The notes under the pieces: generated by a model
The model's database searches: none
Seen by the model: only the letters and a program-made list of their open reading frames with translations
Told to the model about the DNA's origin: nothing
Position numbers and translations under genes: made by a program
Shown: positions 37,624 through 63,700 of the stretch, piece after piece
How the letters are laid out: each line of letters starts with the position of its first letter
Numbering within the stretch: position 1 is the stretch's first letter
Assembly (NCBI GenBank): GCA_905221605.1
Contig: CAJNDS010000100.1
Coordinates: 62,001-126,000 of the forward strand
Direction of reading: 5' to 3'
DNA: 64,000 nt
DNA from: Symbiodinium natans
Lineage: Eukaryota; Sar; Dinophyceae; Suessiales; Symbiodiniaceae

Positions 37624-38052
37624 TCAGCGGAGCTTCGGAAAGTCGGGCCCCTCGGGCATGGCAGTCTGCAAGAAGAGCCTCAAGTCTGGCGGGAAGGAGA
37701 TTTTACAGTTCTCCTCCGCGTTCTGAATCTCTGCGTCCGTCATTCCGGGCGAGAAAACCACACCGGCAGCCCTCATGTTGTGAATCAGCTGGTCAATGAC
37801 ATCCTGCGACAGGAAAGGCTGCACCAGCACTGACACCTCATGCACGGAGTCGTGGTCAGTATCATGCAGCTTCCTTCCACCATGGAGCAGCGCCACCTCG
37901 AAACGATGGAGCCCCAGGCGGTGGGCCACTTGGCCCCGGATTTCGAAGACACCGGATCTCGAGGGAAGCTCGACCTCGAGCACCTCCCCACTCAGGAGGC
38001 AGGCACGAACCTTCTCACCTCCACGTGGCTCGCCGTCCGAGGATGAGGCCAT
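37624..38052 (-). CDS. Ubiquitin-like + SMI1/KNR4-like protein, 5' exon
   Basis: The minus ATG at 38052 has CC before it and starts MASSSDGEPRGG. Residues about 12-75 (VRACLLSGEVLEVELPSRSG ... RFEVALLHGGRKL) have the look of a ubiquitin-like beta-grasp domain, as is often seen at the N terminus of dinoflagellate proteins. Residues about 85-143 (GVVFSPGMTDAEIQNAEENC, then FPPDLRLFLQTAMPEGPDFP) match the start of the SMI1/KNR4 (SUKH) domain: G.T..EI..AE......FP.DLR.LLQ..LP.GP.FP. The frame stops right after FPKLR, so an intron must begin there (CTCC|GCTGAG is a possible GC donor). Downstream exons were not identified. A 5' extension to 38250 is open but not protein-like. Confidence 0.62.
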   Translation of the reverse strand: MASSSDGEPRGGEKVRACLLSGEVLEVELPSRSGVFEIRGQVAHRLGLHRFEVALLHGGRKLHDTDHDSVHEVSVLVQPFLSQDVIDQLIHNMRAAGVVFSPGMTDAEIQNAEENCKISFPPDLRLFLQTAMPEGPDFPKLR

Positions 38053-38850
38053 GGCAAAGGGGGCCCTCCTAAGCGACCGGATGGACCATGGTGTGTGACC
38101 CTGTCTTCTCCAACTCATCAGCTCATCAGAAACCCCGCACTGACCGGAGCAAAAGTGAGCATGAGCGAGCATGAGTGAACATGAGCAACTCCAAAACAGA
38201 GCTCGGTGAGTCGGACTTAAACCATGGAAACTTTGAGTCGAACCAAACACATAGACTAGGCTGGGAGCCTGCAGCTTCGGAGATTATGCATGGTCTGGAC
38301 TCCACCAACGAGCACCACACGGGGGGGGGGGGGGGGGGGGAAAGAAACCCAAAAAACAAACGCCGGAAGGGGGGGGGGGCAACGTGTCCAGGCCTACCCT
38401 CGCACTCGTCGTGGCAACGTGAGCCTCCAGAGCTCAGACTCAACTTGAGGTCAGGAGTCAGGAGTTTAGTGGCTTTGCAGAGATTTGGGAGATTTGGTGA
38501 TGTCTGGGATAGTCGCAGGGAAAAGCCCTAGCAAGGCATGAAGTTTTGAAACTGATGCAGGGATTTAAGGTTTAGGGTTCAGAGTTTATGTGGCCCTGCA
38601 GAGACAGAAGATACCGGAGTGCTCTCCAAAGTCAAGAAGGCCATTGCAGTTTACACATACACACACACACACATCTCTACGTCACAAAGCCACGTTAATT
38701 AAGTTCCCTGGCCTACTGTGGGTTTGGCACTGAACGGCACACGCGGGTCTCTGGGATGTACCATCGCTGGTGCAGGGCTTAACATGAGAATGAGTTGTCA
38801 CCTTCTGAGCCAACCGAACTCTGAGCCGCTGAACAATTACCCAAATGATG

Positions 38851-45989: not shown

Positions 45990-45994
45990 TATCC
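45990..45994. repeat. Target site duplication, left copy (TATCC)
   Basis: TATCC directly abuts the left LTR and is repeated directly after the right LTR at 58393-58397. Five bp is the usual duplication for Ty1/copia integrases. Confidence 0.9.
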
Positions 45995-46137
45995 TGAAGT
46001 TTTCAGGTCAGCACATGAGGGAACATATAAACCGTTAAGTACGCCTCTTTTTATCGGCAACTTGAGCCACAGTCAAGGGTAAAGCGATAGTATGCACAGC
46101 TCGCAAAAGGAGTGTAATTCCTCCATGAAAAACTACA
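45995..46137 (-). repeat. 3' LTR (143 bp)
   Basis: Begins TG and ends CA with short inverted ends (TGAAGTTTT / AAAACTACA in plus orientation). No difference from the 5' LTR was seen. In element orientation it contains TGGCTCAAG (46061-46069), the last nine bases of the dinoflagellate spliced leader. Confidence 0.93.
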
Positions 46138-46148
46138 CCCCCCTCACC
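46138..46148 (-). promoter_or_regulatory. Polypurine tract
   Basis: On minus GGTGAGGGGGG lies immediately 5' of the 3' LTR, the position where plus-strand DNA synthesis is primed in LTR retrotransposons. Confidence 0.75.
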
Positions 46149-46284: not shown

Positions 46285-49200
46285 TCAGCGGCTCCACCAC
46301 TGCGATCCGCGCTGACTGCTCCAGCGGGATGAGCCCCAACCCTGACTAGTTGGCTCACGCCACTCACGCCACTCGCGCCATTCACGGTCTGACCACCACT
46401 GTTCTTGCCCTTGATGCCAGGGTGCTTCACGAACAGCTGTGTCCCTTGATGAGGCGCTCTGCGTCGATGGACGGGTAGTAGTGGCAGCCTCCGTTCGCTG
46501 CTGTGCCGTCTCTCGATTCTTGGCGGCGTGGTAGGCGGTGATTCTTTCCTGCTCCTCGGCAGAGTGGATGCATTCTGCTGCCAGCATTTGCAGCTCGGCG
46601 ATCATGCCTTCCGGCGTATCATGCTTGATTTCCACAATGCCGTTGAAGCTGTAGATCGTGCGGGCACCGGACAAGCGGGTGGCGATATCGGCATAGAAGC
46701 TGAAGCCGATGAAGGCGCCGCCGTAGGCCATCCCGATGGGGTTCTCGGAGAACTGGTCAATCAGTCCAGCCGATTTTAGGCCATCCATTGGCGCATCGCC
46801 ATAGTAAACCAACTTGCCCGGCATTCCCTTTCGGGAAGCTCCGCTGAGGTAGTTCGACCCCGCCTGCAGAAGCCGCTGCTCTTCTGTGCGGCCTGGGTCC
46901 GGGAGCACGGCCTTCACCAGGAGGTCCATTCGGCACGCATCCTGAACCGTGATCCCGTTCCTCATCATCTGCAGGAAGAAGGTGGCATCACGCTCCAACC
47001 GATCTGCAATGGAGTCGAACTTGAGCTTTCTCGCACGTTGGAACTTGTCTTTGGCATCGCGTATGATCAGCGCATCCAGGGAGACTGAGCCCCGTTGTTT
47101 GCTGAACTTTTCTGCGATGCCACGGAGGTGTCCCAGGAGATCGTCATTCCGAGCATTGTACGTCAGCTTGAGGAGTGTGGTGCGACGGTTTTGCTGGAAC
47201 GAGGAGTACTGACGGCTTGCCTTGTTGGACTCCGGGAACTGGTTTTCACCGCATGTCATGCAAAAGCGCTGCCCAAGCAGGACGATGCGTTGGCAGGCCG
47301 AGCATGGATAGCTCCCGTATGGGGCTTCGCTGTCGCTCTCTGCCTCTTCCGTGTCGGATACCTCCTGTGCAGGCTGCGTTTGGTCATCCACCGATTCCTC
47401 GTCTTGCTCTTCAATGGATTCCAACGCAGCAGCCTCGATCCTCGCCTTCTTTGCCTCGATGAAAGCGCCAACAGTGCCCTTGACTCGCTTGGGTTGGTCT
47501 TCTGGGACAGCCCTTGACGCCAAGGCTTTGACTGTTGAGCTCGAGGAGGCTTGTTCAACAGTATCCGGCTCACCCTCTCGGGTGGCTGCAGGCTGGGCCT
47601 CTCCCGCTTTTGCATAGATCACCTTGTTCGTGTTGGTGTCCACACATGACAGGATATACTGAGGGCCAACGACTGCACGGGTCAAGATCCCGCGGGTACT
47701 GTTCTCGAAGAAGACGAGGCCATCTCGGAGGGCTTCATGCAGGTTCACCGCAATCTGGAACGGCTGCGTCGACCTGAGTCCAGAGGTGTACTTCTCGTCC
47801 TTGAGGGTGGTAGGTGAGAAATACGCATGGGCACGCCCGCCCTTTCTGCCGCCAGCAACCTTGATCCCGGATTTCAAAATCAACTCCACGCTCTTCGCAT
47901 CCGTGCGGTGGTATACGACCTGTGGAGCGACATCCAAATTCTCATCGGTGAGAAACCTCCGGGCAAGGAACTCGTCTGACTCGATGCGCATCACTTTCTC
48001 CGAGTGGCCGGTGACTGCTCTGATCCGCACAGGAAAGAGGGAGAGATTCAGGCTGCTGCTGATCTCGTGTCGGATCCCAAGAATCTCGAACCTCCTCTTT
48101 TTGTCCTGCGCTGTCACCTGCAGTAGCTGTCTTACGCCCCATTTTCGACGAGTTGCTTCATTGAAGCGGTCCAGGAGCTTATCGACATCCGTCCACATGG
48201 CGATGTCGAAGTCCAGCCCATACCAGTCATTCTGGTGTCCCCTCAAGAGCAAGCTGAGCAGCTTGAGGTCGCCGTGCCTGAAGTTCACCCGCTGTTCATA
48301 CTTGCGGAGATCGGCACTTGGCAGAGGCTCAAGGTCGTGGAGCTCCCCGTTGTACCAGTAACCGGTCATCGGGAGGTCCTGCTCCAGGCTTTCCTCTCCA
48401 CCATGGGTTTTGGACGCGTCCTGGTACATCTCGCGGGCGTAGACATCCTCGCTTTGCCCCGACGACTTACCCTTTCGGGTAGCTGCGCTTGTTGCCCGGC
48501 CGTCTGACGCCAGGGGAGGTCGGTAATCCCCATCATCGGCGAGCACGACCTCGTTCAGGGGAAGGTACTCAGCCTTCTCTGACTCGGCCTGGACGACTTC
48601 ACCCTTGACCTCATCGATCTCCGATACGTCCGAAACCACAGGGTATTCCACCTCGGATCGGGCGATCGTCTTGTCTTGCTGAGCGGGTGCGGCAACTGGT
48701 TCATGCGCAGTGTTAGCGTCGGGGACCTCCCACCAGGTGTCTTCCTTGCTGATCTTCACGGGCACAGGCGCCTTGATCTTGTGGACCTTCAGGTCTTTTC
48801 TGCCGCTTTCAACCACCTCCTTGTAGAGGCGTAGGGCTTCACGACCTGCTGCACTGTCCATCCTGTAGCCGCCTTCCACCTCGACGTAGGGGAAAAGATC
48901 TCCTAGTCGATCCAGAACATCTGCATACCGTGACGCTTCCCTTTCTAGGTCGCCAAGGAGCGCCGTGGTGTAGATGTAGTCTTGGATCTGCTTGCGGTTT
49001 TCGGGGGTATCCCAAAGATGAAAATCATCGTAATAGGACAGCTTCATTGCCTGGGATGTGGCGTTCTGAACTTGCAATCCGCGACTCGTGAATTCATCAA
49101 ACATCTTGGAGATGAATTCATTGTACGCGGGATGCAAGTTGTAGGTCTCGTGGTCAACGTTGCCGACGATGCGGACAAACCCGATATGCGGCTCACCCGC

Positions 49201-52200
49201 TAGGGTGGCTAGCGCGTCGGCGCAGCGCCTCACCTTCCTCGCAACATCTTCTGCCGAGGTCTGGGAGGTCGAATATGCCGCGCCCGGAGCGAGCCGCGTG
49301 GGGATGCATCCTCGTCGTCCAGCAACTTCATTTCCTGACCACCAAACGATCACATCGATCTCGCACTCCGACCCATACTTGGCACGGATTGCCTGGATCT
49401 CCTCCTGCACCTGCCAAGTGAGCCACGAAAGCGTTTTTCCCCAGCACATGTGGAGTTTATCGCTCGTGTACCTGAGGGTCAGTGCTGCCATGAAGATCTC
49501 CTCTTCGGGAATGGAGAATTTCCATTGCCCCTTGGTGTTCTGTCGCCCAAGGGATGTGACTGAGTCCGTCACCACTAGCAGAAAGCGACTTCGGCGCAAC
49601 CTTTCGGTTGGCTGGAGCTTGCTGAGACCCTCGTTCGAGATGCGAGCCAGCTTAAGCAGATTCGGCGTTGGAATCTCGGGGTCATTGAGGCTGAGGCTGG
49701 CGATGGTCTGTGGGGGGAAGACCTCATAGGACTTGAGGAGCGCGTCATACTCCTTCCCCGCCTGGAGCTGCAAGTACTCCACGCTCAGTCCGGCGTTGAC
49801 GAGCATGTTGAGATGTCCTTGCAGTGCCAAAGGTCGGCCCTCCATGCCAGTATCGCAGGAGTAGCCCGCACCATGGGCGACCAATCGCGACATTGTTCCT
49901 AGTGCCTCAATACTGCTGACCACTTGGAGAGAGCCAGCTAGCACAGAGAGAGTCGGTACAGCAGGCTCAACCGAAGCACTTGTGCACGTGGTGTATGTTT
50001 GTGCGTTCCCGATCGATGCGCGCAAAACCGACGCGACCGTTTCGGGAGTGGTTTTGGGACTTTTACCCCCCTCATCGTGAGGGGATGCACATGAACAAAC
50101 GCACGCATGTTTCAACTGAGCCCGGGGCGTCCTAAAATCAGTGTCTTGTAGGAGTTGCTTGTCATCGTCACCCAGCTTTGTCCACCCCCCTGATGAGTAG
50201 GCAATGAGAGAATGCCTGTTTCCTGTAAAGGGTTGGACAGCATGTCGAAGGTGAGGGTTTAGGAGCACGGGTTTTCGACAAGTTTGAAGGTTACGGCCGA
50301 ACCAGGTCTTACCGTCTTTGTCAGTGAAAGCGTCCATTCTTTGGTCGGGATCCTCCACCCAGAGCTCGCCCCCCTGATAGGGACCGAAGCCGAAGGACCA
50401 GTTTTGGCTTCCTCTGAGATTAAACTTGTCGCTGTGAACGCCAGCCCTGCCCATAAAATTGATGACAAACGAAGTCCAGGTAAAATGCTTTGGAGCGTGC
50501 TTGCGGATGAAACCATTTATGTAGCGGCACAGTTGGGACATTTGGCCAGTACGCTTTGTTAGGCCGAAGCACCCACCATGTGTCCACAGTCCAAACACGA
50601 AGTATTTGGGAGCCAACTCGGTGCCGGAACGAACAACACTGCGAAGTCTTGAGCTCGACATACGAAGGTTGTCGTACATCATTTCGGCGACCTGCTCGAA
50701 ATCTTCGAAATCATAGCGGTCAGCTCGGCGAAGCAGTTTTGCAACGTGTTCCAGTTGCTCTGTGGTAATGCACACCGACTTCGGAGCAGCGGGAACAGAT
50801 TTCGACACGGAATTTCTTCCGGCTTGAGGGTCGACCGACTTGTAGGTGTGAGCAATGAGCTTCAACGCATGTATCCATTTTGTTCGCTCCGTAAAAGGCT
50901 TTGTGAACACATCTGCAACTTGCTCGCTGGTGTCAACATTGAGGAGGCGAAAATGTCCTTCTTCATATTGCTGACGGAGCCATCCGAAGCTAACCTTTTG
51001 TGTGCGATCTGTATGTCGAAGCACACCTGCACGCCCTGATAACAGCAGAGTAATGGTCGCTTGGTTGTCTTCCAAATGCCTAATCTGAAAACATTTGGGA
51101 AGCTGAACGTGCAAACCATTGATATCTGCAATAGACATGCCATCGGGTCTGGTAGTGCCATACCGAATCTCATCAAGTTCAGGGTCTATGCGTGCCACAA
51201 CAGAACTGTTCGTAGTCTTCATTTCAGCCCTCGGCCCAACCTCGCGGTCGGCTTTGCCGCGCCAAAGGAAGTACCAGAGGCTGAGGCTTGGAAGACCTTG
51301 GGCGCGTACACCCTGATTAGCCGACACCACTTCAGACTCGGTAGAGCTCATTGTTATGGACGTTTGTTTCTTACTGAAGGCGTTGATGGGGTAGTACGTG
51401 TTAGGGCCCACCAGAAACAGAGCACATCCAGTAGTAGATTTTGAATCATACTCACCTGCGAAGTCAGCGTCGCTAAAAAGCCAGAGCCTGCAATCATGTA
51501 TCGAATCCCCAATGAACCCACTCATAGTGAGGTCAATAGAGGAATTGATGTACGATACAAGACGATGTAATGCTAGATCACAATCTGGGCTCCATTTTGT
51601 GACTCGCGAGGCCAAGGATTGGGTTGCTCGTAAAAGGTCCCATCGTGCCATTCTTGCAGCAAACAGGATTTTCATGAGGACCTTACTTGCAATAGGTTGG
51701 AGCCGCCCTGTCTTCTCCGTTTCATTGACGATAGGAGTGGCAGTCCGAAGTTCATGGAATGGTGTGCTCACTGACTTCAACGAGCTACGATCCACCTTTG
51801 CCAATTCACAGTAGCGATCCACACAAGAATGCAAGAAATCCTTCATGTCATAGGTGATTCTTGTAACCGGTTTAGTCATAGAGCCCGGCTTGTCCTCCTG
51901 ATCCCTGGAAAGAGTAACGAACTTGTTCTGTTTGACCTCCTTCTTTGCCTCGGCCTTGTTTCGAACCGACTTACCCTTTCGGGCAGCTGCAACAGCCAGA
52001 CCGAACTCTTCAGGCCCCCGGGCAGCGAGGTCGAAGTACGTCGTACCTGTCCACCACTGTTTGAAGCATTTGTCCCTAGCGATGTTCATATTGTCTTGGT
52101 GTTCTTCTGTCACCCCATCTGCAGCCTGAAAGGTGTATCTTTGAGGTCCAATCGTAGGGAACATCTGAACATCTTCTTCAGTGGGCATATACAACCTCTT

Positions 52201-54912
52201 TCTGGGATAGCTATGGTGCCGAACTGCAAGCATGACTTCCGGGATTACGTCCCACCTGTCCTCAGCAATCTTAGCTGGGGCTGCAGTTTCATTTTCGGGT
52301 TCGAAGACATAGTGAAAAGGGTGGTGCTCTTTGGAAAGCGTGACGTTCTTTTCCTCGATGTGTTGACATCCGAAGTAACGTCCAATCACCTCAGCGGGAT
52401 CCATGTCTATTACTGTTGCAATAGATTCCCAGCCTTTCTGGATGTTCTTCGTGGGTCCAGCGAGTTTAAAGTCGTCAACATAAATAACCATTAAGAGCTC
52501 CAAATCGGCGTTGTAAAACACGCTCTTCCATATGTCAGTGAGCACAGGCTCGAATCCCACCTTCTTGAGCTCAGTCTCGCAATGACGTTCCCATATCCCC
52601 CCTGAATCTGGGTGCCCATAAAGAGCCAACTTCAGGGGAACGACCGGGTCCTTCATAGACCTCCAGCCTTTTGGCCATCTATTGCGAGGGAGCCTTACCC
52701 AAGTTTCAACCCCAGTGAAGAGAGCCTGCGTATACGCCTGTCGTGCATCCGCTTGCTGAATCGAGAAGCCGGGCTGAGATCCAAAGACATCCAATATTTT
52801 GCCCGCCTCCATAGAAGCAGGACTGCTCGACATCTCTGCGAAGAGAGCATGATCAGAGTTCTCATCCAAGACCTTGTTGCCCTGAAACACTGACCGACCC
52901 TTGTAACGGCGGTTCGGGTCGTTCTCCTTCAACTCAGAACCTTTTAGAGTCCCGATTTCGAAGATCTTCCCGAAGTGCACTTTCTCATTGGTTTTTCGTG
53001 CTTCTGCCGCAACGGAGTCGTACTCTCTCACTCGTTTCTCTACCCAACAACCCTTATCAACAAGCTTCTTCCACTCTTTGTCGAGGGCAGCCTGCGCTTC
53101 GGGACTGGATTCAATCTCCTTCGCAGACAGGATCTTGGCCACGACCGCGTACATGTCCTGGGCAATCTCCAGGAGCTTAGACTCGTAGAGGGAACACATT
53201 TTCTTTCGGTGGTCTTCGGGTTTCCCATACAACACCGGCATTGCTGGAACGTGCTTTATCGCCTGGTTGTAGTCCTCGTCGACCTTGGCTTGCTTTGAAG
53301 CTTGATGTTCTGCAAGCGCTTTGTGTTTTTCTTCGACGGTCAGCTTGCTCCATACTTTAGCTTGAACGCCCGGAAGCGAGGAAAGGCCTTTTTGCTTGAT
53401 CAGTCTCTCCCCATCCCAGCGATAGCCATACGGAATGCCGATTCCGTCTTTTGTTTTGAACGATGGAGTTGCAGGTGCCAGTCTCTCTCGGACTGAGAAG
53501 GGTACATCATCTAGAGGATCATATCGTGCAGGATAGACGATGTCGTCCCATGCTGACCCCCCTGATGGCCGATCTCCTTCATCGAGTGGTCCCACTCCCC
53601 CTTCGAAATCTTCTTCTTCTTCTTGATGCGGGTTTCTTTCTTCAACGGCGTTGTGATGTTGATCATCGAGTTCGGGCGGCTTCTGGTTTCCCAGAGCTTC
53701 AAGATCCTGTGACAATGGGAACTGGAACTTCCCTTCCAGGAGTTCAAGCCTTTTGGCCCTGAAAGTCCTGAAGGCGTCATTCTCGATGGCCTCGTTGATT
53801 CCCTGCAAAGGAGCAACTAAGTACTCTTCCTTGAAGACGAAGCCAGGCTGGATATGATACCCGAGGAAAATTCCTTCAATACCCGTCCCCGCAAACTTTG
53901 ACCTTTTGGGCTGCTTCTGCTTGGGGTCGGCCCAGTACAAAATCTTAGCCCCAAAGGGAACAAGGACCCCTTGGAAGTCGCTCCCGAACCTTTGATTCCA
54001 TGGCACTAAACCGTTGTCAAGACGTTTACTAACGTTCAAAGAAATAGCGTGATGTTGGGATGCAAGTGGCCAGAACTGATCAGGTAAACCAGATTGTACC
54101 AAATTGGCACGCGTACCTTCCAAGATCGTTCGTATTTCACGCTCGATCACTGCTTTGTTCTGATCCACATACTCCCTGGATGTATTGTGCCTAGCTTGGA
54201 GTTGCTTAACCGCGTAGTCGAACTCATGAGCGTTGTCAGAGTAAACAACCTTAACATTATCATCGACCTCGAAAAAGTGCAGTAAATCTTCGTAACACTG
54301 CTCACCACTTTTGTTGTCGGCCGGGTAAACATAACGAAACTTCGTAAAGACATCCTTCACAACATGTGCTACAGTTTGTCCTTCGAATCCGTAGTCCTTG
54401 GCGTCTTTCGTGATGATGTGGTCGATGGTGATGTGGTCACCGAACCCCTTGCTGTGCACAGTGCTAGAACCTCCCTTTCTTCTGGCATGCGGAGCATACA
54501 TTTTGGCTCGTTGGCATACCGGACAGAAAGGGTTCTTTGGACGATGACTCAAAAGATGCTGCACGGATTCCGCTTCAGCTCTTAGAGACGCCTCGTCCTT
54601 CTTCGACTTTGGAATGTGGGCCTCAACGTCGCTATCGGGCACATCTTCACCGCCATCGGGCATGGTAAAGACAGTGATGGTCATGTCGGTACCCTCAGGT
54701 ACCTTCCCGTAGACGGCGTCGAGCTCGTCCATGTTGACCTTGTTCTCCAGCTGCTTCCACTCGCCATCTTTGTATCCCCAGGTGGAACGAATTCGATACT
54801 TGGGGTAGCGAGGTGCAGGTGTTCTGAAGGTCTTTGGGTTATGGGCAACCTTGACGTGGGGATCACCATTCACAGTAACCCATCCAGCCTTCAACAGTTG
54901 CTCTTTCTTCAT
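46285..54912 (-). CDS. pol: ORF2: copia Pol with long multi-enzyme C-terminal extension (2875 aa)
   Basis: Domains in order. Integrase: HLLSHRPKNPFCPVC (about 95-110, zinc-binding remnant), catalytic D164 (TIDHI), D226 (YSDNAHEF), E257 (VIEREIRTIL). Reverse transcriptase about 640-900 with YVDD at 811-814. RNase H about 1145-1345, from SDADFAGEYDSKSTTG (D1148) to ADVFTKPF. Then a 1530-residue extension: a 2OG-Fe(II) dioxygenase-like domain about 1400-1580 (H1493-S-D1495, GGELW, H1557, R1566); an SGNH-hydrolase-like domain about 1680-2010 (TD-S1784, SG-N1861-E, D1962-DF-H1965); a Tpt1/KptA-like domain about 2205-2420 (R2224, R2298 in IRAVTGHS, H2335 in VYHRTD, R2380); a zinc ribbon (C2537, C2540, C2551, C2554); and a Trp/Arg-rich tail. 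Typical copia Pol ends at RNase H. The frame is open without ATG to about 55103, overlapping ORF1 in the -1 frame, so a Gag-Pol fusion by frameshift is possible. The first two extension calls rest on catalytic-motif spacing. Confidence 0.9.
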   Translation of the reverse strand: MKKEQLLKAGWVTVNGDPHVKVAHNPKTFRTPAPRYPKYRIRSTWGYKDGEWKQLENKVNMDELDAVYGKVPEGTDMTITVFTMPDGGEDVPDSDVEAHIPKSKKDEASLRAEAESVQHLLSHRPKNPFCPVCQRAKMYAPHARRKGGSSTVHSKGFGDHITIDHIITKDAKDYGFEGQTVAHVVKDVFTKFRYVYPADNKSGEQCYEDLLHFFEVDDNVKVVYSDNAHEFDYAVKQLQARHNTSREYVDQNKAVIEREIRTILEGTRANLVQSGLPDQFWPLASQHHAISLNVSKRLDNGLVPWNQRFGSDFQGVLVPFGAKILYWADPKQKQPKRSKFAGTGIEGIFLGYHIQPGFVFKEEYLVAPLQGINEAIENDAFRTFRAKRLELLEGKFQFPLSQDLEALGNQKPPELDDQHHNAVEERNPHQEEEEDFEGGVGPLDEGDRPSGGSAWDDIVYPARYDPLDDVPFSVRERLAPATPSFKTKDGIGIPYGYRWDGERLIKQKGLSSLPGVQAKVWSKLTVEEKHKALAEHQASKQAKVDEDYNQAIKHVPAMPVLYGKPEDHRKKMCSLYESKLLEIAQDMYAVVAKILSAKEIESSPEAQAALDKEWKKLVDKGCWVEKRVREYDSVAAEARKTNEKVHFGKIFEIGTLKGSELKENDPNRRYKGRSVFQGNKVLDENSDHALFAEMSSSPASMEAGKILDVFGSQPGFSIQQADARQAYTQALFTGVETWVRLPRNRWPKGWRSMKDPVVPLKLALYGHPDSGGIWERHCETELKKVGFEPVLTDIWKSVFYNADLELLMVIYVDDFKLAGPTKNIQKGWESIATVIDMDPAEVIGRYFGCQHIEEKNVTLSKEHHPFHYVFEPENETAAPAKIAEDRWDVIPEVMLAVRHHSYPRKRLYMPTEEDVQMFPTIGPQRYTFQAADGVTEEHQDNMNIARDKCFKQWWTGTTYFDLAARGPEEFGLAVAAARKGKSVRNKAEAKKEVKQNKFVTLSRDQEDKPGSMTKPVTRITYDMKDFLHSCVDRYCELAKVDRSSLKSVSTPFHELRTATPIVNETEKTGRLQPIASKVLMKILFAARMARWDLLRATQSLASRVTKWSPDCDLALHRLVSYINSSIDLTMSGFIGDSIHDCRLWLFSDADFAGEYDSKSTTGCALFLVGPNTYYPINAFSKKQTSITMSSTESEVVSANQGVRAQGLPSLSLWYFLWRGKADREVGPRAEMKTTNSSVVARIDPELDEIRYGTTRPDGMSIADINGLHVQLPKCFQIRHLEDNQATITLLLSGRAGVLRHTDRTQKVSFGWLRQQYEEGHFRLLNVDTSEQVADVFTKPFTERTKWIHALKLIAHTYKSVDPQAGRNSVSKSVPAAPKSVCITTEQLEHVAKLLRRADRYDFEDFEQVAEMMYDNLRMSSSRLRSVVRSGTELAPKYFVFGLWTHGGCFGLTKRTGQMSQLCRYINGFIRKHAPKHFTWTSFVINFMGRAGVHSDKFNLRGSQNWSFGFGPYQGGELWVEDPDQRMDAFTDKDGKTWFGRNLQTCRKPVLLNPHLRHAVQPFTGNRHSLIAYSSGGWTKLGDDDKQLLQDTDFRTPRAQLKHACVCSCASPHDEGGKSPKTTPETVASVLRASIGNAQTYTTCTSASVEPAVPTLSVLAGSLQVVSSIEALGTMSRLVAHGAGYSCDTGMEGRPLALQGHLNMLVNAGLSVEYLQLQAGKEYDALLKSYEVFPPQTIASLSLNDPEIPTPNLLKLARISNEGLSKLQPTERLRRSRFLLVVTDSVTSLGRQNTKGQWKFSIPEEEIFMAALTLRYTSDKLHMCWGKTLSWLTWQVQEEIQAIRAKYGSECEIDVIVWWSGNEVAGRRGCIPTRLAPGAAYSTSQTSAEDVARKVRRCADALATLAGEPHIGFVRIVGNVDHETYNLHPAYNEFISKMFDEFTSRGLQVQNATSQAMKLSYYDDFHLWDTPENRKQIQDYIYTTALLGDLEREASRYADVLDRLGDLFPYVEVEGGYRMDSAAGREALRLYKEVVESGRKDLKVHKIKAPVPVKISKEDTWWEVPDANTAHEPVAAPAQQDKTIARSEVEYPVVSDVSEIDEVKGEVVQAESEKAEYLPLNEVVLADDGDYRPPLASDGRATSAATRKGKSSGQSEDVYAREMYQDASKTHGGEESLEQDLPMTGYWYNGELHDLEPLPSADLRKYEQRVNFRHGDLKLLSLLLRGHQNDWYGLDFDIAMWTDVDKLLDRFNEATRRKWGVRQLLQVTAQDKKRRFEILGIRHEISSSLNLSLFPVRIRAVTGHSEKVMRIESDEFLARRFLTDENLDVAPQVVYHRTDAKSVELILKSGIKVAGGRKGGRAHAYFSPTTLKDEKYTSGLRSTQPFQIAVNLHEALRDGLVFFENSTRGILTRAVVGPQYILSCVDTNTNKVIYAKAGEAQPAATREGEPDTVEQASSSSTVKALASRAVPEDQPKRVKGTVGAFIEAKKARIEAAALESIEEQDEESVDDQTQPAQEVSDTEEAESDSEAPYGSYPCSACQRIVLLGQRFCMTCGENQFPESNKASRQYSSFQQNRRTTLLKLTYNARNDDLLGHLRGIAEKFSKQRGSVSLDALIIRDAKDKFQRARKLKFDSIADRLERDATFFLQMMRNGITVQDACRMDLLVKAVLPDPGRTEEQRLLQAGSNYLSGASRKGMPGKLVYYGDAPMDGLKSAGLIDQFSENPIGMAYGGAFIGFSFYADIATRLSGARTIYSFNGIVEIKHDTPEGMIAELQMLAAECIHSAEEQERITAYHAAKNRETAQQRTEAATTTRPSTQSASSRDTAVREAPWHQGQEQWWSDREWREWREWREPTSQGWGSSRWSSQRGSQWWSR
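47490..48300 (-). other. Tpt1/KptA-like RNA 2'-phosphotransferase domain in ORF2
   Basis: Residues about 2205-2475. The N-terminal winged-helix-like part has LKLLSLLLRGHQNDW and a VD.LL...W...LL.V...DKK.RFEI pattern, as in Tpt1 (VDDLL ... V..DKKRF.L). Then IRAVTGHS (Tpt1: IRA.QGHS), VYHRTD...SVELILKSGI (Tpt1: .YHGT....I...GL), RAHAYFSP (Tpt1: HVHLS), and SGLRSTQPFQIAVNLHEAL followed by GLVFFENSTRGILT (Tpt1: G.R....V...VD...M..DG..FY.S.NGV.LT). The family's catalytic set is Arg-His-Arg-Arg. Three Arg positions are present, but the LRH is replaced by LRGH, so activity is uncertain. Confidence 0.78.
48880..49880 (-). other. SGNH/GDSL-hydrolase-like domain in ORF2
   Basis: Residues about 1678-2010. 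Block I is FLLVVTDSV (Ser1784 as nucleophile candidate), block III IDVIVWWSGNEV (Gly1860, Asn1861), block V YYDDFHLWDTPENRKQI (Asp1962, His1965), with hydrophobic strands before each block. The order and spacing fit the SGNH fold (esterase/acetylhydrolase type). The classic GDS is TDS here. Confidence 0.6.
50170..50720 (-). other. 2-oxoglutarate/Fe(II) dioxygenase-like domain in ORF2
   Basis: Residues about 1398-1580. GVHSDKFN supplies HxD (H1493, D1495), followed by YQGGELWVED, then NPHLRHAVQPFTGNRHSLIA with distal His1557 and 2OG-binding Arg1566 nine residues later. This H-x-D ... GG.LW ... H.V.P..G.R.SL pattern is that of 2OG-Fe(II) oxygenases, including the TET/JBP-type branch. Substrate cannot be read from the sequence. 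Confidence 0.65.
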
Positions 54913-55103
54913 GCCTTCAAGAGGGGGATCCTTGGTTAGGATCTCTGCCAGCCATGGTGGATGATCTCCCTCGTCCGCCGCAGGTACCGGGACTACACCG
55001 TCTGGAGCTCCTGGAAGTGGTCCGGCTGCTGCGGCATGCCCTTTCGGGCAGCTTATGCGTGAAAATCCTGCTGCAAGGAGCAGGTAGGCGCCATTCGTTC
55101 ACC
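54913..55103 (-). promoter_or_regulatory. ORF1/ORF2 junction with overlap and hairpin
   Basis: The ORF1 frame ends with TAA at 55053-55055. The ORF2 frame (-1 relative to ORF1) is open from just below a TGA near 55105, giving about 50 nt overlap and about 60 codons before the first ATG. The sequence GATTTTCACGCATAA followed directly by GCTGCCCGAAAGGGCA (hairpin 55037-55050, with an outer GCTGC/GCAGC pairing) is suggestive of recoding: -1 slip on the TTTT run or reinitiation. The slippery heptamer is not canonical. Confidence 0.4.
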
Positions 55104-58100
55104 TTCATCGCGATGCGCTACAGCAGCTGGGTGTCCGGAATCATTCCCAATACTGCTGAACACTGGAACATTCCCCCGTAGCGTGCAAGTGAGCTTCTGG
55201 CCATCGGGCTTCACGAAGTACGGAACTTGCCCTGGAGGCCAGTAAAAACCGTACCCTTGCTGCATGCACTTCTTCCCCACAGAGCAAACCGGTGGGGTAT
55301 CCGGGAGTTCCACGAATTCCAGGCTGCCATTCATTGACGGAACCTCGACTTCTGTCCTGGACGATGCCTCCACGATGCCATTGGCCGTGTGAAGGTTGAC
55401 TGGCGTTGCGTCGACTTTTCTACCGACTCCTTCGAAACACTTTCTCAAGTCCGAAGAGCTGATAAGGTCCTCTTCACTTCCCGTATCGGCAATGATGTCC
55501 AAGTTCTGAAGTTCCTTGCGCGCTGGAGCGGCAGTTCCTGACATCATATTTCCTGCTGCACAATGCCGGCAAGCGAAATCAGGCTTGCAGCAGCGATGCT
55601 TGCATTTTGTCTTTTCACCATGGAGTTCCGAGTACACTGAGGCCTCAAGATTTTGTGCGTTGATGACTGCACACTGAAGATCACCAGGGTCGGACATAGG
55701 GCAATCAGCATTGGTTTTGAATCTTGCCACACATTTGCGCTTATGGGGAACAAATTTCCAACCATCTCCGACGCTTTCAACTGGGTGTATCTCAGGGTGC
55801 CTTTCAAAACACACACTCATGTCTTTAGGCTTCAGCTTGAAACTCGTAACGCCCGTCCAATTGGGCAGAGGTGCTTGCTTGTCGCACGTTTTCCAATTGT
55901 ACTGTAACGTTCGCTCTTCGCCGGTTTTCAGCTTCATGGTGATGCTCGCAACAGACTTGATTCTCCATGCTGGAACGGGGCAGCTTTGGGGAATATAATA
56001 GTTGTTTCTCAGAACAACATGTTCCCTAGACAGCGTGAGTGACTTCTCATCAAGACGCCATGTGTCTGCATGCCTACCATCCGGCTCACCCTTTCGGGCG
56101 GCTAAGGCGTACACGCAACAGGCAGCTGCTTTAGCTTCTGTCCTCTTCTTCCGGCTCGGCCTTCGCTTAGCCGGGGAGGGTGCACGTGCCTTAGCCTTGG
56201 CCGGGACAGAGGGCGATGCGGACTTGTCCTTGTGCAAGAACTTGCATTTGTCCCCATTCCTGCAAGTACCCTTGGCATAAAATACGCATGGGATATTGGA
56301 GGTATCTTTGCTGTTGCTCTTCTCTCTCTCGCGAGAACCTGACTTAGGCCGGTTGGGAGATCTCTCCCTTGAGGATGCTTTGGGGTCTTTCGTGTGTTCA
56401 TACTTGCAACGCTCCCCAAACTTACACTTACCCTTCTGAAACAACATGCAAACCTGCCTACCCTGACGTCCTCTGGATGGCTGTCGTCGCTCCGAGGGAG
56501 CGGGCGCCGACGGCTTCGCAGGGGTAGGAGGGGCAGGTGCACCATACTTTGCGCCATGGGCCTTAGCAATCTTGTCCCTGTTCTTCCTAATTCGTTCTCG
56601 TGTGAGGAGATTCTTGATGCTTTCCATGAGGAACTTGTAGGTGTGCTCAGGGGTCCCCTCACGAGCCCGATCGTAAATGTCGAGATCATACTTCAAACGA
56701 TGGGACTTGCGAAGCTCACGAAGGAATATGTCTCGCAAAGTGGTTTCGTCTGGAGGATGCGACAGTCCAGCAATCACTGAATCCCAGTTATGCACGAAGG
56801 TAGCGAGGTCATCATTGATCAGTGCCACTTTCAAGAGGTCTTCGACCGAGTAGAGGGAGCCAACTTCTTCGTTGGTTTTAAAGTAGGCTTCAAACATTAA
56901 CAGCACTTGCCTACCTCTCACTGCTCTACCACAGGTGGCCTCCGTCTCCTTGTAGTTGAGTATTTGTCTCGCAAGCTCGCCCTTCGCCACCCTAGACAAT
57001 GCTGCAAGGATTTTGGTGTCTAGCGTGAGGAATTTCCCTACATCGTTGAGGCTATCTAGTGACGCACCCTTTGCGTACACCTGCTGAATCCACGCAAATG
57101 CTTCATCAGGGTGATCAGATGCTGCTCGAACAGCCTCACGCACTGCCGTCTTCCACGATCTGTACGTCTCCGCTGAGGGAAAATCCGGAAGTTTCACTGT
57201 CTCGGCTTCCTTAGTCTTAGGTTTCGTCTCATCCTTGGTAGCAAAGTCCTTGAGCGCTTTTGCAATCGCTTCATGCACTTCATTAGGGGCTTGCGAAACA
57301 GGAGTAGATGCCCCCAGATTAAACCTCTGGGGCCGTCTCTCAAAGAGACCCTTCATGCTCTCTGGAATCTGCAACGGATTTGGCAAATCAGCATGCGTGA
57401 CATGTGCATTACCGCATGCGGCACCCCCTTGCGGGGGGCTTGCTTCGGCAGTGTTCAAACCCGGTGGAGGTGCTGAGGCCATGGGAACAGCCTGCTGGTG
57501 CTCGGCACCACCTTTCGGCAGGCTAGATGACGCTGTAGCGGTTGCCTTAGCCTCATCAAGTTCAACCATCAAACGCTGGTTCGACTCAGCCAACTCCTGG
57601 ATCAAGACATCACATGCACTCTCTTCTTCATGCATGGCATATGTGAACATGTTCTCTTCATACTGCATTTGCTCTCTAAATTCGTTGCCTAAGAATTCCA
57701 GCTGGGTTTCCCTGTTTTGATCGTACACAACCCTGAGGTTAGCAAGGGAAAATTCACTTTGTTCGAGATGGGTCCTGAGGCGAGTTTCCGATTCGAGAAC
57801 CATGTTACCTCGTGCCTCAAGCTCGAGATTGTGCATCCTGAGTGTGTGTGCGTCCTGTGCGGCTTGGTCAAGCTCCGCCGTTCGACCTCTTAGTGCTGCC
57901 TTGGTCTCCAGTAGTTGTTGTTGTAGCTCACGAACCACAAAGTCCATGCGGTCACTGATGACTTCAATCCGTGCACGATGTTGGGCATCAGCGTGTTGCT
58001 CGAGTTCTCCCATTTCTGCACGGGCCTGCCTTGTAGCCATGTCCAGGATTTCCGCATGTCTGCGTTCGGCTTCGATACGAACTCGCTCTGCATCCTCGTT

Positions 58101-58223
58101 TTGTTGCACGATGATCAGCTGCTGCTGTACCCGGTACTGGTTGAACTGTTGGTAGTTGGTTGTTGCAGACTGATCATGTTGCGCATTGGGATCAATGGTC
58201 CCATCTTGCAGCTGCAGAGCCAT
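55053..58223 (-). CDS. gag: ORF1: copia Gag plus aspartic protease (1056 aa)
   Basis: The ATG at 58223 lies 26 bp after the 5' LTR. N-terminal about 260 residues: Gln/Glu-rich with heptad-like coiled coil (AERVRIEAERRHAEILDMA). Residues about 350-560: a Gag-like helical region (LPDFPSAETYRSWKTAVREA ...). Two zinc fingers, C592-x7-C-x5-C-x3-H610 and C646-x7-C-x5-C-x3-H664, are CCCH type, whereas most copia Gags carry a CCHC knuckle. A Cys/His-rich region (about 700-890) follows. The protease begins at ADTGSEEDL (D913) and runs to the end. It is a structural capsid protein with its own protease, upstream of and partly overlapping the ORF2 frame. Intact, no frameshifts. Confidence 0.92.
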   Translation of the reverse strand: MALQLQDGTIDPNAQHDQSATTNYQQFNQYRVQQQLIIVQQNEDAERVRIEAERRHAEILDMATRQARAEMGELEQHADAQHRARIEVISDRMDFVVRELQQQLLETKAALRGRTAELDQAAQDAHTLRMHNLELEARGNMVLESETRLRTHLEQSEFSLANLRVVYDQNRETQLEFLGNEFREQMQYEENMFTYAMHEEESACDVLIQELAESNQRLMVELDEAKATATASSSLPKGGAEHQQAVPMASAPPPGLNTAEASPPQGGAACGNAHVTHADLPNPLQIPESMKGLFERRPQRFNLGASTPVSQAPNEVHEAIAKALKDFATKDETKPKTKEAETVKLPDFPSAETYRSWKTAVREAVRAASDHPDEAFAWIQQVYAKGASLDSLNDVGKFLTLDTKILAALSRVAKGELARQILNYKETEATCGRAVRGRQVLLMFEAYFKTNEEVGSLYSVEDLLKVALINDDLATFVHNWDSVIAGLSHPPDETTLRDIFLRELRKSHRLKYDLDIYDRAREGTPEHTYKFLMESIKNLLTRERIRKNRDKIAKAHGAKYGAPAPPTPAKPSAPAPSERRQPSRGRQGRQVCMLFQKGKCKFGERCKYEHTKDPKASSRERSPNRPKSGSREREKSNSKDTSNIPCVFYAKGTCRNGDKCKFLHKDKSASPSVPAKAKARAPSPAKRRPSRKKRTEAKAAACCVYALAARKGEPDGRHADTWRLDEKSLTLSREHVVLRNNYYIPQSCPVPAWRIKSVASITMKLKTGEERTLQYNWKTCDKQAPLPNWTGVTSFKLKPKDMSVCFERHPEIHPVESVGDGWKFVPHKRKCVARFKTNADCPMSDPGDLQCAVINAQNLEASVYSELHGEKTKCKHRCCKPDFACRHCAAGNMMSGTAAPARKELQNLDIIADTGSEEDLISSSDLRKCFEGVGRKVDATPVNLHTANGIVEASSRTEVEVPSMNGSLEFVELPDTPPVCSVGKKCMQQGYGFYWPPGQVPYFVKPDGQKLTCTLRGNVPVFSSIGNDSGHPAAVAHRDEGERMAPTCSLQQDFHA

Positions 58224-58249
58224 CGTGTGAGACTCTACGGCTGATAACC
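58224..58249 (-). promoter_or_regulatory. Primer binding site and short leader
   Basis: The 5' LTR ends ...ACTTCA and the next bases on minus are GGTTATCAGCCG. This resembles the plant copia PBS (TGGTATCAGAGC, initiator Met tRNA) with one extra base. The leader before the Gag ATG is only 26 bp, unusually short. Confidence 0.5.
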
Positions 58250-58392
58250 TGAAGTTTTCAGGTCAGCACATGAGGGAACATATAAACCGTTAAGTACGCC
58301 TCTTTTTATCGGCAACTTGAGCCACAGTCAAGGGTAAAGCGATAGTATGCACAGCTCGCAAAAGGAGTGTAATTCCTCCATGAAAAACTACA
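58250..58392 (-). repeat. 5' LTR (143 bp)
   Basis: Identical to 45995-46137 by eye. It holds TTTATAT near its end in element sense as a possible core promoter and the spliced-leader-like TGGCTCAAG at 58316-58324. Confidence 0.93.
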
Positions 58393-58397
58393 TATCC
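58393..58397. repeat. Target site duplication, right copy (TATCC)
   Basis: Directly abuts the right LTR and matches 45990-45994. Confidence 0.9.
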
Positions 58398-61080: not shown

Positions 61081-62065
61081 ACCCCCCTGAACAACCCTAC
61101 ACAAATCGCCGCTGCGTGGCGCCAGAGAAATGAGGCTCAGGGCCTGTCCGACCATCGCTGCGTCGCGAAAAGTAAGGGCCGCATACATGGTCCCGAAAAC
61201 CTTGGGGGCTAGGGTTTAGGGTTTGGGAATTTTGGGAATGTTTGGGATTCAGGCCTACAACAAACTCGAAAAGCATCAAAGTTCTATACTCTAAACCCTT
61301 TAAACCCCAAACCTTTCGAATTTCCTAAGGTCACTAGGAAGCTGGGAATAACAACAAGGGGGTGCCTTCCCTGCTTCCAAAAACCAAGAATGCGGGCACA
61401 TACGGGCACCGCCGGGCATCTTAGCTACGCCCCTAAGCCAATGCCAAAGAAGCCTCATGTTGGGGGAGTGTGCCCTGAATTTGAGTCTGAGATGTGGTAG
61501 AGCGAAACGGGTATGAATATCATCTGCCATCGGACAAGTTCAAGTTTCACTTGCCAGCCGCCCTCAGGGCCTTTAACGATGTCAAAAGCAAGGCTATAGG
61601 TTTTTGCGGCTTTGCCAACCGCGCTTAACATGCCTCAGCTATGGAATTCTGGCTCGCCTTCTTCAGGGTGTATAATGTAGAAAGGTGCTACTGCGCGCGT
61701 TTCGGTCCCTGACCCCCCAAACTCAGCAGGCGGCCGAGAGGATGGAGCTTAAAGTCTTATGGGTTTAGGTTTTGAGTCCAGGGTTACTCCTAGACCTGTA
61801 TAAGCCCTATATGGCCTTCTGGTGTAGGTCCGTCGTTGCCGGGGCGCCGGGATCAGAGGGCAAATCCGCAGGATCTTGAGGAAGTGTGCTCCCAGCACAT
61901 TGACCGTTAACCTCAGGGGGGGGCGGGTCTGAACTGTCCCTGGAAGTGAACGAAACCCGAAAAGTACGTCTGAAGTGGAGGGTGCCTTTGTGAAACTTCT
62001 CAGCGGAACACCTCAGCGGAACACCAGTGTCATTCCATTTCCCACATAATATACCCCCTAACCCT

Positions 62066-62205
62066 ATATACAATATATATATATATATATATATATAATA
62101 ATCATAATAATAATCAAAAAATATAATATAATATAATATAATATAATATAATATAATATAATATAATATAATATAATATAATATAATATACTATACTATA
62201 ATATT
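62066..62205. repeat. (TA)n followed by (ATAAT)n
   Basis: A TA tract, then about 17 copies of a 5-bp TATAA unit, ending with a small TACTATACTATAATATTAATA variant. Confidence 0.93.
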
Positions 62206-62239
62206 AATATCCGCCGACCCCTGCTTTAGCGGGGGAGGC

Positions 62240-63395
62240 GTCAGTGAAGACCCATTTGCCCTCATGCCCAAACCCCCCCCGCCCTCACCCCCTCGACCTC
62301 ACCCTTACCCTCTTAGGCCCCCCCACCTCCCCCCTCACCTTACACTTGGAAATGAAGTGTTTTAGGGGCTCCAGTGCATGCCCGGACCCCCCGCCCCCCC
62401 CCGCCCACCCCGCCCACCCCGCCCGCCTCCCCCCTTCTCACCCCATTTTGGCCCCCACAGCCCCCCACCCCGCCCGCCCTCACCCCTTACCCCCCACCTC
62501 ACCCCTACCCCTGACCTTTTACTTGGAAATGAAGTGTGTCAGGGGTTTAGGGCACGCCCGGACCCCTACCCCCACCTCACCCCGACCATTTGCCTTTTAC
62601 TTGGAAATGAAGTGTTCCCGGACCCCCCCGCCCCCCCCGCCCCCCCCCCCCAACCCTTCCTCGCCCCCAACCTTGGCCCCCACCCCCCCCCCCCCCACCC
62701 CCCCCAACCCCCCCCCCCCCCCCCCACCCCACCTGCCCCTGACCTTACTTTGGAAACAAAGTGTGTCAGGGTTTTAGGGCATGCCCGGACCCCTTGCCTT
62801 TTACTTGGAAATGAAGTGTTTGAGGGCTCCAGGCATGCCCGGACCCCCCCGCCCCCCCCCCCCCCCCCCCCCCCGGCCACCCCCGCCCACCCCGCCCACC
62901 CCGCCCACTGCACCCCTTCGCCTCTGCCCCCAACCTTGCCCCCCCCACCTCACCCCTCCCACCTTTACTTGGAAATGAAGTGTGTCAGGGGTTTAGGGCA
63001 TGCCCGGACCCCTTGCCTTTTACTTGGAAATGAAGTGTTTGAGGGGCTCCAGTGCATGCCCGGACCCCCCGCCCCCCCCCGGCCCACCCCGCCCACTGCC
63101 CTCACCCCTTCGCCTCTGCCCCCAACCTTGCCCCCCCCACTCACCCCTACCCCTGACCTTTTACTTGGAAATGAAGTGTGTCAGGGGTTTAGGGCATGCC
63201 CGGACCCCTTGCCTTTTACTTGGAAATGAAGTGTTTGAGGGATGCCCGGACCCCCGCCGCCCCCCCCGCCCACCCCCGCCCACCCCCGCCCACCCCGCCC
63301 ACCCCGCCCTGGAAATGAAGTGTGTCAGGGGTTTAGGGCACCCCTTGCCTTTTACTTGGAAATGAAGTGTTTGAGGGGCTCCAGTGCATGCCCGG

Positions 63396-63441
<46 letters not shown>
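62240..63441 (+). repeat. C-rich satellite with TTACTTGGAAATGAAGTGT units
   Basis: At least ten copies of a module starting TTTTACTTGGAAATGAAGTG and ending GCATGCCCGGACCCC, separated by C-rich stretches. Two alternating subtypes: GTGTCAGGGGTTTAGGGCATG and GTTTGAGGGGCTCCAGTGCATG. Subtype 1 contains a TTTAGGG unit. All frames are Pro-rich and unlikely to be genes. The array runs into the assembly gap, so its true length is unknown. Confidence 0.88.
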
Positions 63442-63541
63442 NNNNNNNNNNNNNNNNNNNNNNNNNNNNNNNNNNNNNNNNNNNNNNNNNNNNNNNNNNN
63501 NNNNNNNNNNNNNNNNNNNNNNNNNNNNNNNNNNNNNNNNN
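63442..63541. other. Assembly gap (100 N)
   Basis: Exactly 100 N, a conventional scaffold gap following a 40-C run. Confidence 0.99.
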
Positions 63542-63700
63542 TTAAATAATTTAAATAATTTAAATAATTTTAAAAAATTAAATCCGAAAAGGGGGGGGGG
63601 CAGGACCGGGCCCCCCCCCTTCCCAGAATTAAATAATTTTAATAATGTAAATACGAAACGCCCCTTTCGGATTTAAATTATTTAAATTATTTAATTCTGG
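63542..63700. repeat. AT-rich inverted repeat right of the gap
   Basis: TTAAATAATTTAAATAATTTAAAT with CCGAAAAGGGG on the left pairs with CCCCTTTCGG and ATTTAAATTATTTAAATTA on the right; CCAGAATTAAATAA (63624) also pairs with TTATTTAATTCTGG (63684). It may be real foldback DNA or a gap-filling artefact. Confidence 0.7.

Follow-up and report, generated by a model that had tools for sequence, protein, structure and literature searches.

A Ty1/copia retrotransposon family in Symbiodinium natans with three enzyme-like domains fused to the end of Pol

We analyzed a 64,000-nucleotide stretch of the dinoflagellate Symbiodinium natans (assembly GCA_905221605.1; hereafter, the window), which spans positions 62001 to 126000 of contig CAJNDS010000100.1 and contains a complete long terminal repeat (LTR) retrotransposon on its minus strand, from window position 58392 to 45995. 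The element belongs to a Ty1/copia family that has been active recently, and its Pol continues beyond RNase H into a tail with a Tpt1/KptA-family domain, an SGNH hydrolase-like domain, a 2-oxoglutarate (2OG)-Fe(II) dioxygenase-like domain, and a zinc ribbon. It is close to certain that this module forms a single-frame fusion with Pol, is present in several diverged lineages, and keeps its catalytic residues under purifying selection. We assign a probability of about 0.55 to the fuller reading, in which Pol of a recently active Ty1/copia family carries a C-terminal enzyme module seemingly needed by the element itself.

A complete element with an extended Pol frame

The 5' LTR (58250..58392, minus strand, as are all features of the element) and the 3' LTR (45995..46137) are identical over their 143 bp and have TG..CA ends (TGTAG...CTTCA). 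The target-site duplication GGATA flanks the element on either side (58393..58397 upstream and 45990..45994 downstream). A first-pass annotation, made from the sequence alone, had described a recent, intact element with one unbroken 2875-codon copia Pol, and both descriptions hold. Open reading frame (ORF) 2 (46285..54912), encoding Pol plus the extension, is stop-free over 2875 amino acids, and its motifs follow the copia order of integrase, reverse transcriptase (RT), and RNase H. The presumed integrase (approximate limits 53473..54558) has HHCC-like residues at 119 to 133 and D164, D226, and E257 or E259 as a candidate triad; the Pfam scan of ORF2 gave no integrase match in this part. RT and RNase H (50893..52932) show YVDD at residue 811, RNase H motifs at residues 1146 to 1339, and a Pfam RVT_2 match above the cut-off (residues 662 to 859, 6.7e-9). 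The tail starts near residue 1341. Under a crude model, the chance of a 1535-codon open frame at this base composition is about 6.5e-26, and codon selection, described below, is an independent argument against a chance open frame.

ORF1 (55053..58223) encodes a 1056-amino-acid Gag that contains two zinc fingers of the CCCH type and, at residue 913, the aspartic protease motif DTG. The fingers lie at residues ~590 to 665 (window ~56229 to 56456), whereas the usual zinc motif of retroelement Gag is the CCHC knuckle. The ORF2 frame stays open as far as 55098 and overlaps, in a different frame, the last part of ORF1, an arrangement that would fit frameshifting without proving it. A putative primer-binding site, GGTTATCAGCCGTAGAG (58233..58249), directly follows the 5' LTR, and a polypurine tract with a single T, GGTGAGGGGGG (46138..46148), adjoins the 3' LTR.

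Enzyme-like domains of the tail

Conservation was assessed in eight aligned rows representing only four lineages, with P0001/P0003 and P0005/P0007/P0008/P0010 being near-copies. The tail is confirmed to hold a Tpt1/KptA-family domain (residues 2206 to 2430; 47623..48297), from which RNA 2'-phosphate removal is predicted. It is found by three hidden Markov model (HMM) libraries (Pfam, 5e-21; PHROG, 1.3e-13; NCBIfam, 1.9e-13, with a score well short of the equivalog cut-off set for that model), and the identity is backed by a PDB sequence search and a fold search. The Pfam match to PF01885 (76 bits versus 26) covers model positions 8 to 176 of 177, including both lobes, and the predicted structure has the NAD+ lobe fold of the ADP-ribosyltransferase type. 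The Tpt1 active site is described as an Arg-His-Arg-Arg tetrad (PMC6333775), and R2224, H2226, R2298, and R2360 are invariant in all eight rows. A protein search with this domain alone returned 12 matches, all 52 to 94% identical to P0004 or P0006 and all pieces of the same retroelement family. Translated searches of phage DNA with it gave 14 records with a best E of 2e-4, the best 12 of the 14 having 24 to 27% identity; the corresponding searches gave two chance-level matches for SGNH and none for 2OG.

The SGNH hydrolase-like domain (residues 1741 to 1990; 48943..49692) is supported by invariant residues and by fold matches to the predicted structure, which indicate a flavodoxin-like SGNH fold. 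S1784, G1825, N1861, and D1962 with H1965 appear in order in blocks I, II, III, and V in all eight rows and four lineages, with block I reading [ST]DS rather than GDS and block III reading GNE rather than GND.

The 2OG-Fe(II) dioxygenase-like domain (residues 1426 to 1600; 50113..50637) carries an HxD..H iron triad with a downstream Arg. H1493 and D1495 are invariant in eight of eight rows, and H1557 and R1566 in six of six, the other two rows being gapped there. Its YxGGEL...H.V.P..G.R context, also present in the sequence of Escherichia coli YbiX, is one that we take to be typical of prolyl-hydroxylase-like 2OG enzymes. Because of this signature and its context, the tail probably includes an oxygen-using 2OG-Fe(II) enzyme. 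Two other retroelement proteins that match the query in the 2OG part only, P0012 and P0013, show the same HxD..H..R pattern. A related 2OG-like domain is common to several retroelement families, in which its position differs: it is N-terminal in P0012, precedes integrase in P0013 and P0026, lies upstream of RVT_2 in P0028, and ends the predicted protein in P0027. The 216 residues searched are the same in P0013 and in P0026, which is named as a Copia protein of Symbiodinium microadriaticum.

Several results weigh against these assignments. In the Tpt1 tetrad, a Gly is inserted after the first Arg, ahead of His (R-G-H), and HRT stands in place of HGT. The overall quality of the structure models is low (mean predicted local distance difference test score [pLDDT], 41 and 39), and the lobe bearing R2224, H2226, R2298, and R2360 is modeled too poorly to position them. 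Curated HMM scans of ORF2, including Pfam, PHROG, and NCBIfam, matched neither SGNH nor 2OG families. In hhalign comparisons with 17 single E. coli proteins, the SGNH profile placed TesA only sixth, leaving the decoys unbeaten; the 2OG profile ranked the decoy RlmF first and YbiX second, on a par with QmcA, though with YxGGELxVxD set in register. Foldseek on the SGNH-holding model gave no match reaching an E of 1e-3, and no 2OG fold is among the fold matches listed, the 2OG part of the model (pLDDT, ~22 to 44) being barely tested. PDB profile searches produced one weak unrelated match for SGNH and nothing for 2OG. The fold check proposed by the first-pass annotation thus returned Tpt1 and SGNH folds but no such result for 2OG. 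Its Tpt1 call stands, its SGNH call is upheld by residues and fold but not by HMMs, and its dioxygenase call is upheld by the signature but not by HMMs or fold.

The zinc ribbon also predicted there is borne out: CxxC-x10-CxxC (C2537-C2540 and C2551-C2554; 47251..47304) has all four Cys in eight of eight rows. It is followed by a conserved C-terminal region with no assigned fold (residues 2561 to 2800; 46513..47232), which is 37 to 66% identical between lineages. Weak HMM matches to Ntox37 and PHD were taken as chance.

GC content at third codon positions (GC3) is 0.52 in RT and 0.57 in the 2OG-like domain, and 0.71 to 0.72 in the SGNH and Tpt1 domains and the C-terminal region. This step between 2OG and SGNH (window 46285 to 50900) suggests two acquisitions, in which the 2OG-like domain perhaps joined apart from the rest of the tail.

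Relatives, genomic copies, and selection

The tail was searched against ~5.8 billion protein sequences, and 7998 candidates were scored. This yielded 11 proteins: P0003, P0004, P0006, six gene models of Symbiodinium sp. CCMP2592, P0012, and P0013. All but the last two cover 77 to 100% of the query tail. P0003 is 99.6% identical to the query, has 41 members in its 90% cluster, and possibly comes from the same genome; P0004 (2898 amino acids) has both RVT_2 and Tpt1; P0006 (116 members) begins within RT. The CCMP2592 models are without most of RT-RNase H, a loss that probably reflects predicted introns, and some are without part of the 2OG-like domain. RT and tail occur within one protein only in P0001/P0003 and P0004. 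In P0004, Gag is joined in frame to RT without protease and integrase, by a deletion or a splice-like join. The public name "Wrn" of P0007 fits an N-terminal exonuclease domain fused in the gene model to the retroelement tail, and as a label for the protein it is misleading. Pattern searches for relatives gave 3, 21, and 146 matches in viral contigs and 118 in prokaryote genomes, none confirmed, and no phage DNA matched the element.

The tail is conserved in lineages that are 35 to 48% identical. Between P0001 and P0004, identity is 78% in RT and RNase H, 43 to 47% in the three enzyme domains, and 22 to 36% in the linkers and end tail.

We also searched the assembly as the element's own genome (759 Mb, 2543 contigs), where 16 of 2157 first-look candidates, the window copy included, were scored. 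Four matches (L014, L016, L017, and L018) cover less than the whole query. Thirteen of the 16 copies are stop-free, and the other three have 1, 4, and 1 stops. Across 17 catalytic or zinc-binding residues in 16 copies, 271 of 272 cells are unchanged; only L008 departs, with R2298K.

Ratios of nonsynonymous to synonymous substitution (dN/dS) were obtained from Nei-Gojobori counts of the 15 other copies against the window copy, with stop codons skipped; values are given for L013, L015, and the 13 closer copies pooled, and they are not independent, since the pooled copies have common ancestors and the counts for some domains are low. The tail gives 0.12, 0.13, and 0.09, compared with 0.10, 0.09, and 0.07 for RT and RNase H and 0.09, 0.14, and 0.11 for the part before them. 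Within the tail, the ratios are 0.15, 0.22, and 0.04 for 2OG; 0.03, 0.02, and 0.09 for SGNH; 0.13, 0.13, and 0.09 for Tpt1; 0.04, 0.04, and 0.05 for the zinc ribbon with the C-terminal region; and 0.20, 0.24, and 0.14 for the linkers and end tail. When distinct variants are counted, dN/dS is 0.14 in the tail and 0.10 in RT and RNase H. Purifying selection on the tail is therefore about as strong as on RT-RNase H. The relatives, the 16 genomic copies, and dN/dS lead us to reject a read-through or one-off tail; the extension is present in the further copies and relatives that were recovered, in searches that used the tail or whole Pol as query.

Possible roles of the module

A mechanism in which the module cleans RNA is our tentative proposal, short of an even chance. 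The module would be produced together with Pol and enter the virus-like particle, protease would probably free it, and it would ready RNA for reverse transcription. Tpt1, using NAD+, might strip 2'-phosphates off the RNA of the element or off the 3' terminus of a half-tRNA primer produced by cleavage; the 2OG enzyme might take off or add an oxidizable mark, such as N-methyl, on RNA or DNA; and the SGNH domain might remove acyl groups or serve lipid or membrane targeting, as proposed for CR1/L2 elements. The substrate is a guess in each case. The primer idea draws on the general knowledge that copia elements are primed by half-tRNA and on the complement of GGTTATCAGCCGTAGAG, which resembles an anticodon arm with the loop CTGATAA and suggests a copia-type half-tRNA primer site. 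The putative site occurs at 35 exact places in the genome, including that of the window, which are presumably element copies, while a reversed control occurs at 0. Counting against the idea, no tRNA gene matching the site was found, and the window has none.

It is doubtful that the module instead counters host defense, reversing or blocking attack by repairing nuclease-damaged RNA, by ADP-ribosylating or capping nucleic acid ends through Tpt1, or by erasing host marks through 2OG. The enzyme domains diverge faster than RT-RNase H between P0001 and P0004, as conflict proteins may, and phage KptA has been interpreted, in the published text available, as belonging to an RNA repair response to attack by the host; however, selection on the domains within the family is purifying rather than diversifying. 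We know of no host defense of a matching kind here, although no search was aimed at one.

A fuller version of RNA cleaning is unlikely: an RNA-end and RNA-mark repair kit within Pol, in which Tpt1 would make a 2'-phosphate-ended half-tRNA usable as primer or clear 2'-phosphates from genomic RNA after repair, allowing reverse transcription to start or pass, and 2OG and SGNH would remove other blocks. If so, this would be the first retroelement that we know of to encode such an enzyme for repairing its primer or template.

Dinoflagellate DNA carries 5-hydroxymethyluracil (5-hmU), and we regard as quite improbable an epigenetic or chromatin role in which 2OG would oxidize DNA thymine or methylcytosine, marking or unmarking new insertions, and the remaining domains would play accessory parts. 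Such a role would accord with the enrichment of most Breviolum repeats for 5-hmU, as stated in the published text available, with the related 2OG-like domain in other retroelements, one of them named from S. microadriaticum, and with the DNA methyltransferases (DNMTs) of Symbiodinium retrotransposons (PMC5890265). Nothing ties the 2OG domain of the element to TET/JBP, however, and Tpt1 would be left unexplained. A passenger tail, either of host exons acquired in a single event and since retained to no purpose or of in-frame read-through, would suit the GC3 rise from 0.52 to 0.71 to 0.72, which suggests a different origin, but is scarcely credible given a tail dN/dS of 0.09 to 0.13, catalytic residues conserved across lineages and 16 copies, and conservation in lineages 35 to 48% identical.

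Comparable systems are known from other mobile elements. Orchid Ty3/Gypsy retrotransposons likewise have gained a 2OG-Fe(II) domain bearing the HxD..H residues, described as an ALKBH5-like AlkB m6A RNA demethylase active in vitro and encoded by a separate ORF2 (PMC9289625); here, the element is copia, the 2OG-like domain, of unassigned type, is fused to Pol, and two further enzymes accompany it. Bdelloid rotifer LTR retrotransposons share an SGNH/GDSL hydrolase, with ORF3 encoding a GDSL esterase and/or a DEDDy exonuclease (both in a single ORF3 in one species); that ORF3 is separate, typically spliced, and without significant departure from neutrality, unlike our low-dN/dS tail, and the available text mentions neither Tpt1 nor 2OG (PMC5408684). 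An active SGNH esterase is also encoded by ZfL2-1, a CR1/L2-type long interspersed nuclear element, which is non-LTR and has the esterase in a gag-like position (PMC3905857). Symbiodinium DNMT retrotransposons are likewise dinoflagellate retroelements with a captured nucleic-acid-modifying enzyme, but the enzymes differ, and LTR Copia is described there as without any DNMT domain (PMC5890265). Jumbo phages carry KptA/Tpt1 as a stand-alone gene (PMC7824862) rather than fused to Pol. Among open PMC papers, judged by title and the start of the abstract, we found no report of Tpt1/KptA in a retroelement, which is not proof of absence.

A domain of the Tpt1 RNA 2'-phosphotransferase family joins the enzymes captured by retrotransposons, here as one of three enzyme-like domains that are fused to Pol and maintained by selection. 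As some bacteria are reported not to need the Tpt1 that they possess (PMC6333775), a Tpt1-dependent mobile element would be a natural assay for its other roles, and the element offers a way to test how the 3' end of a primer is derived from cleaved tRNA in copia-type elements.

Elsewhere in the window, a 208-amino-acid ORF (37624 to 38250, minus strand) has a weak, below-cut-off match to SUKH/SMI1-KNR4. C-rich, strongly strand-skewed repeats around a recurring TTTACTTGGAAATGAAGTGT unit, together with a run of N, occupy positions 62000 to 63680. Seventeen period-7 tandem repeats between positions 2871 and 42462 are all rotations of telomere-type TTTAGGG, scattered within the contig.

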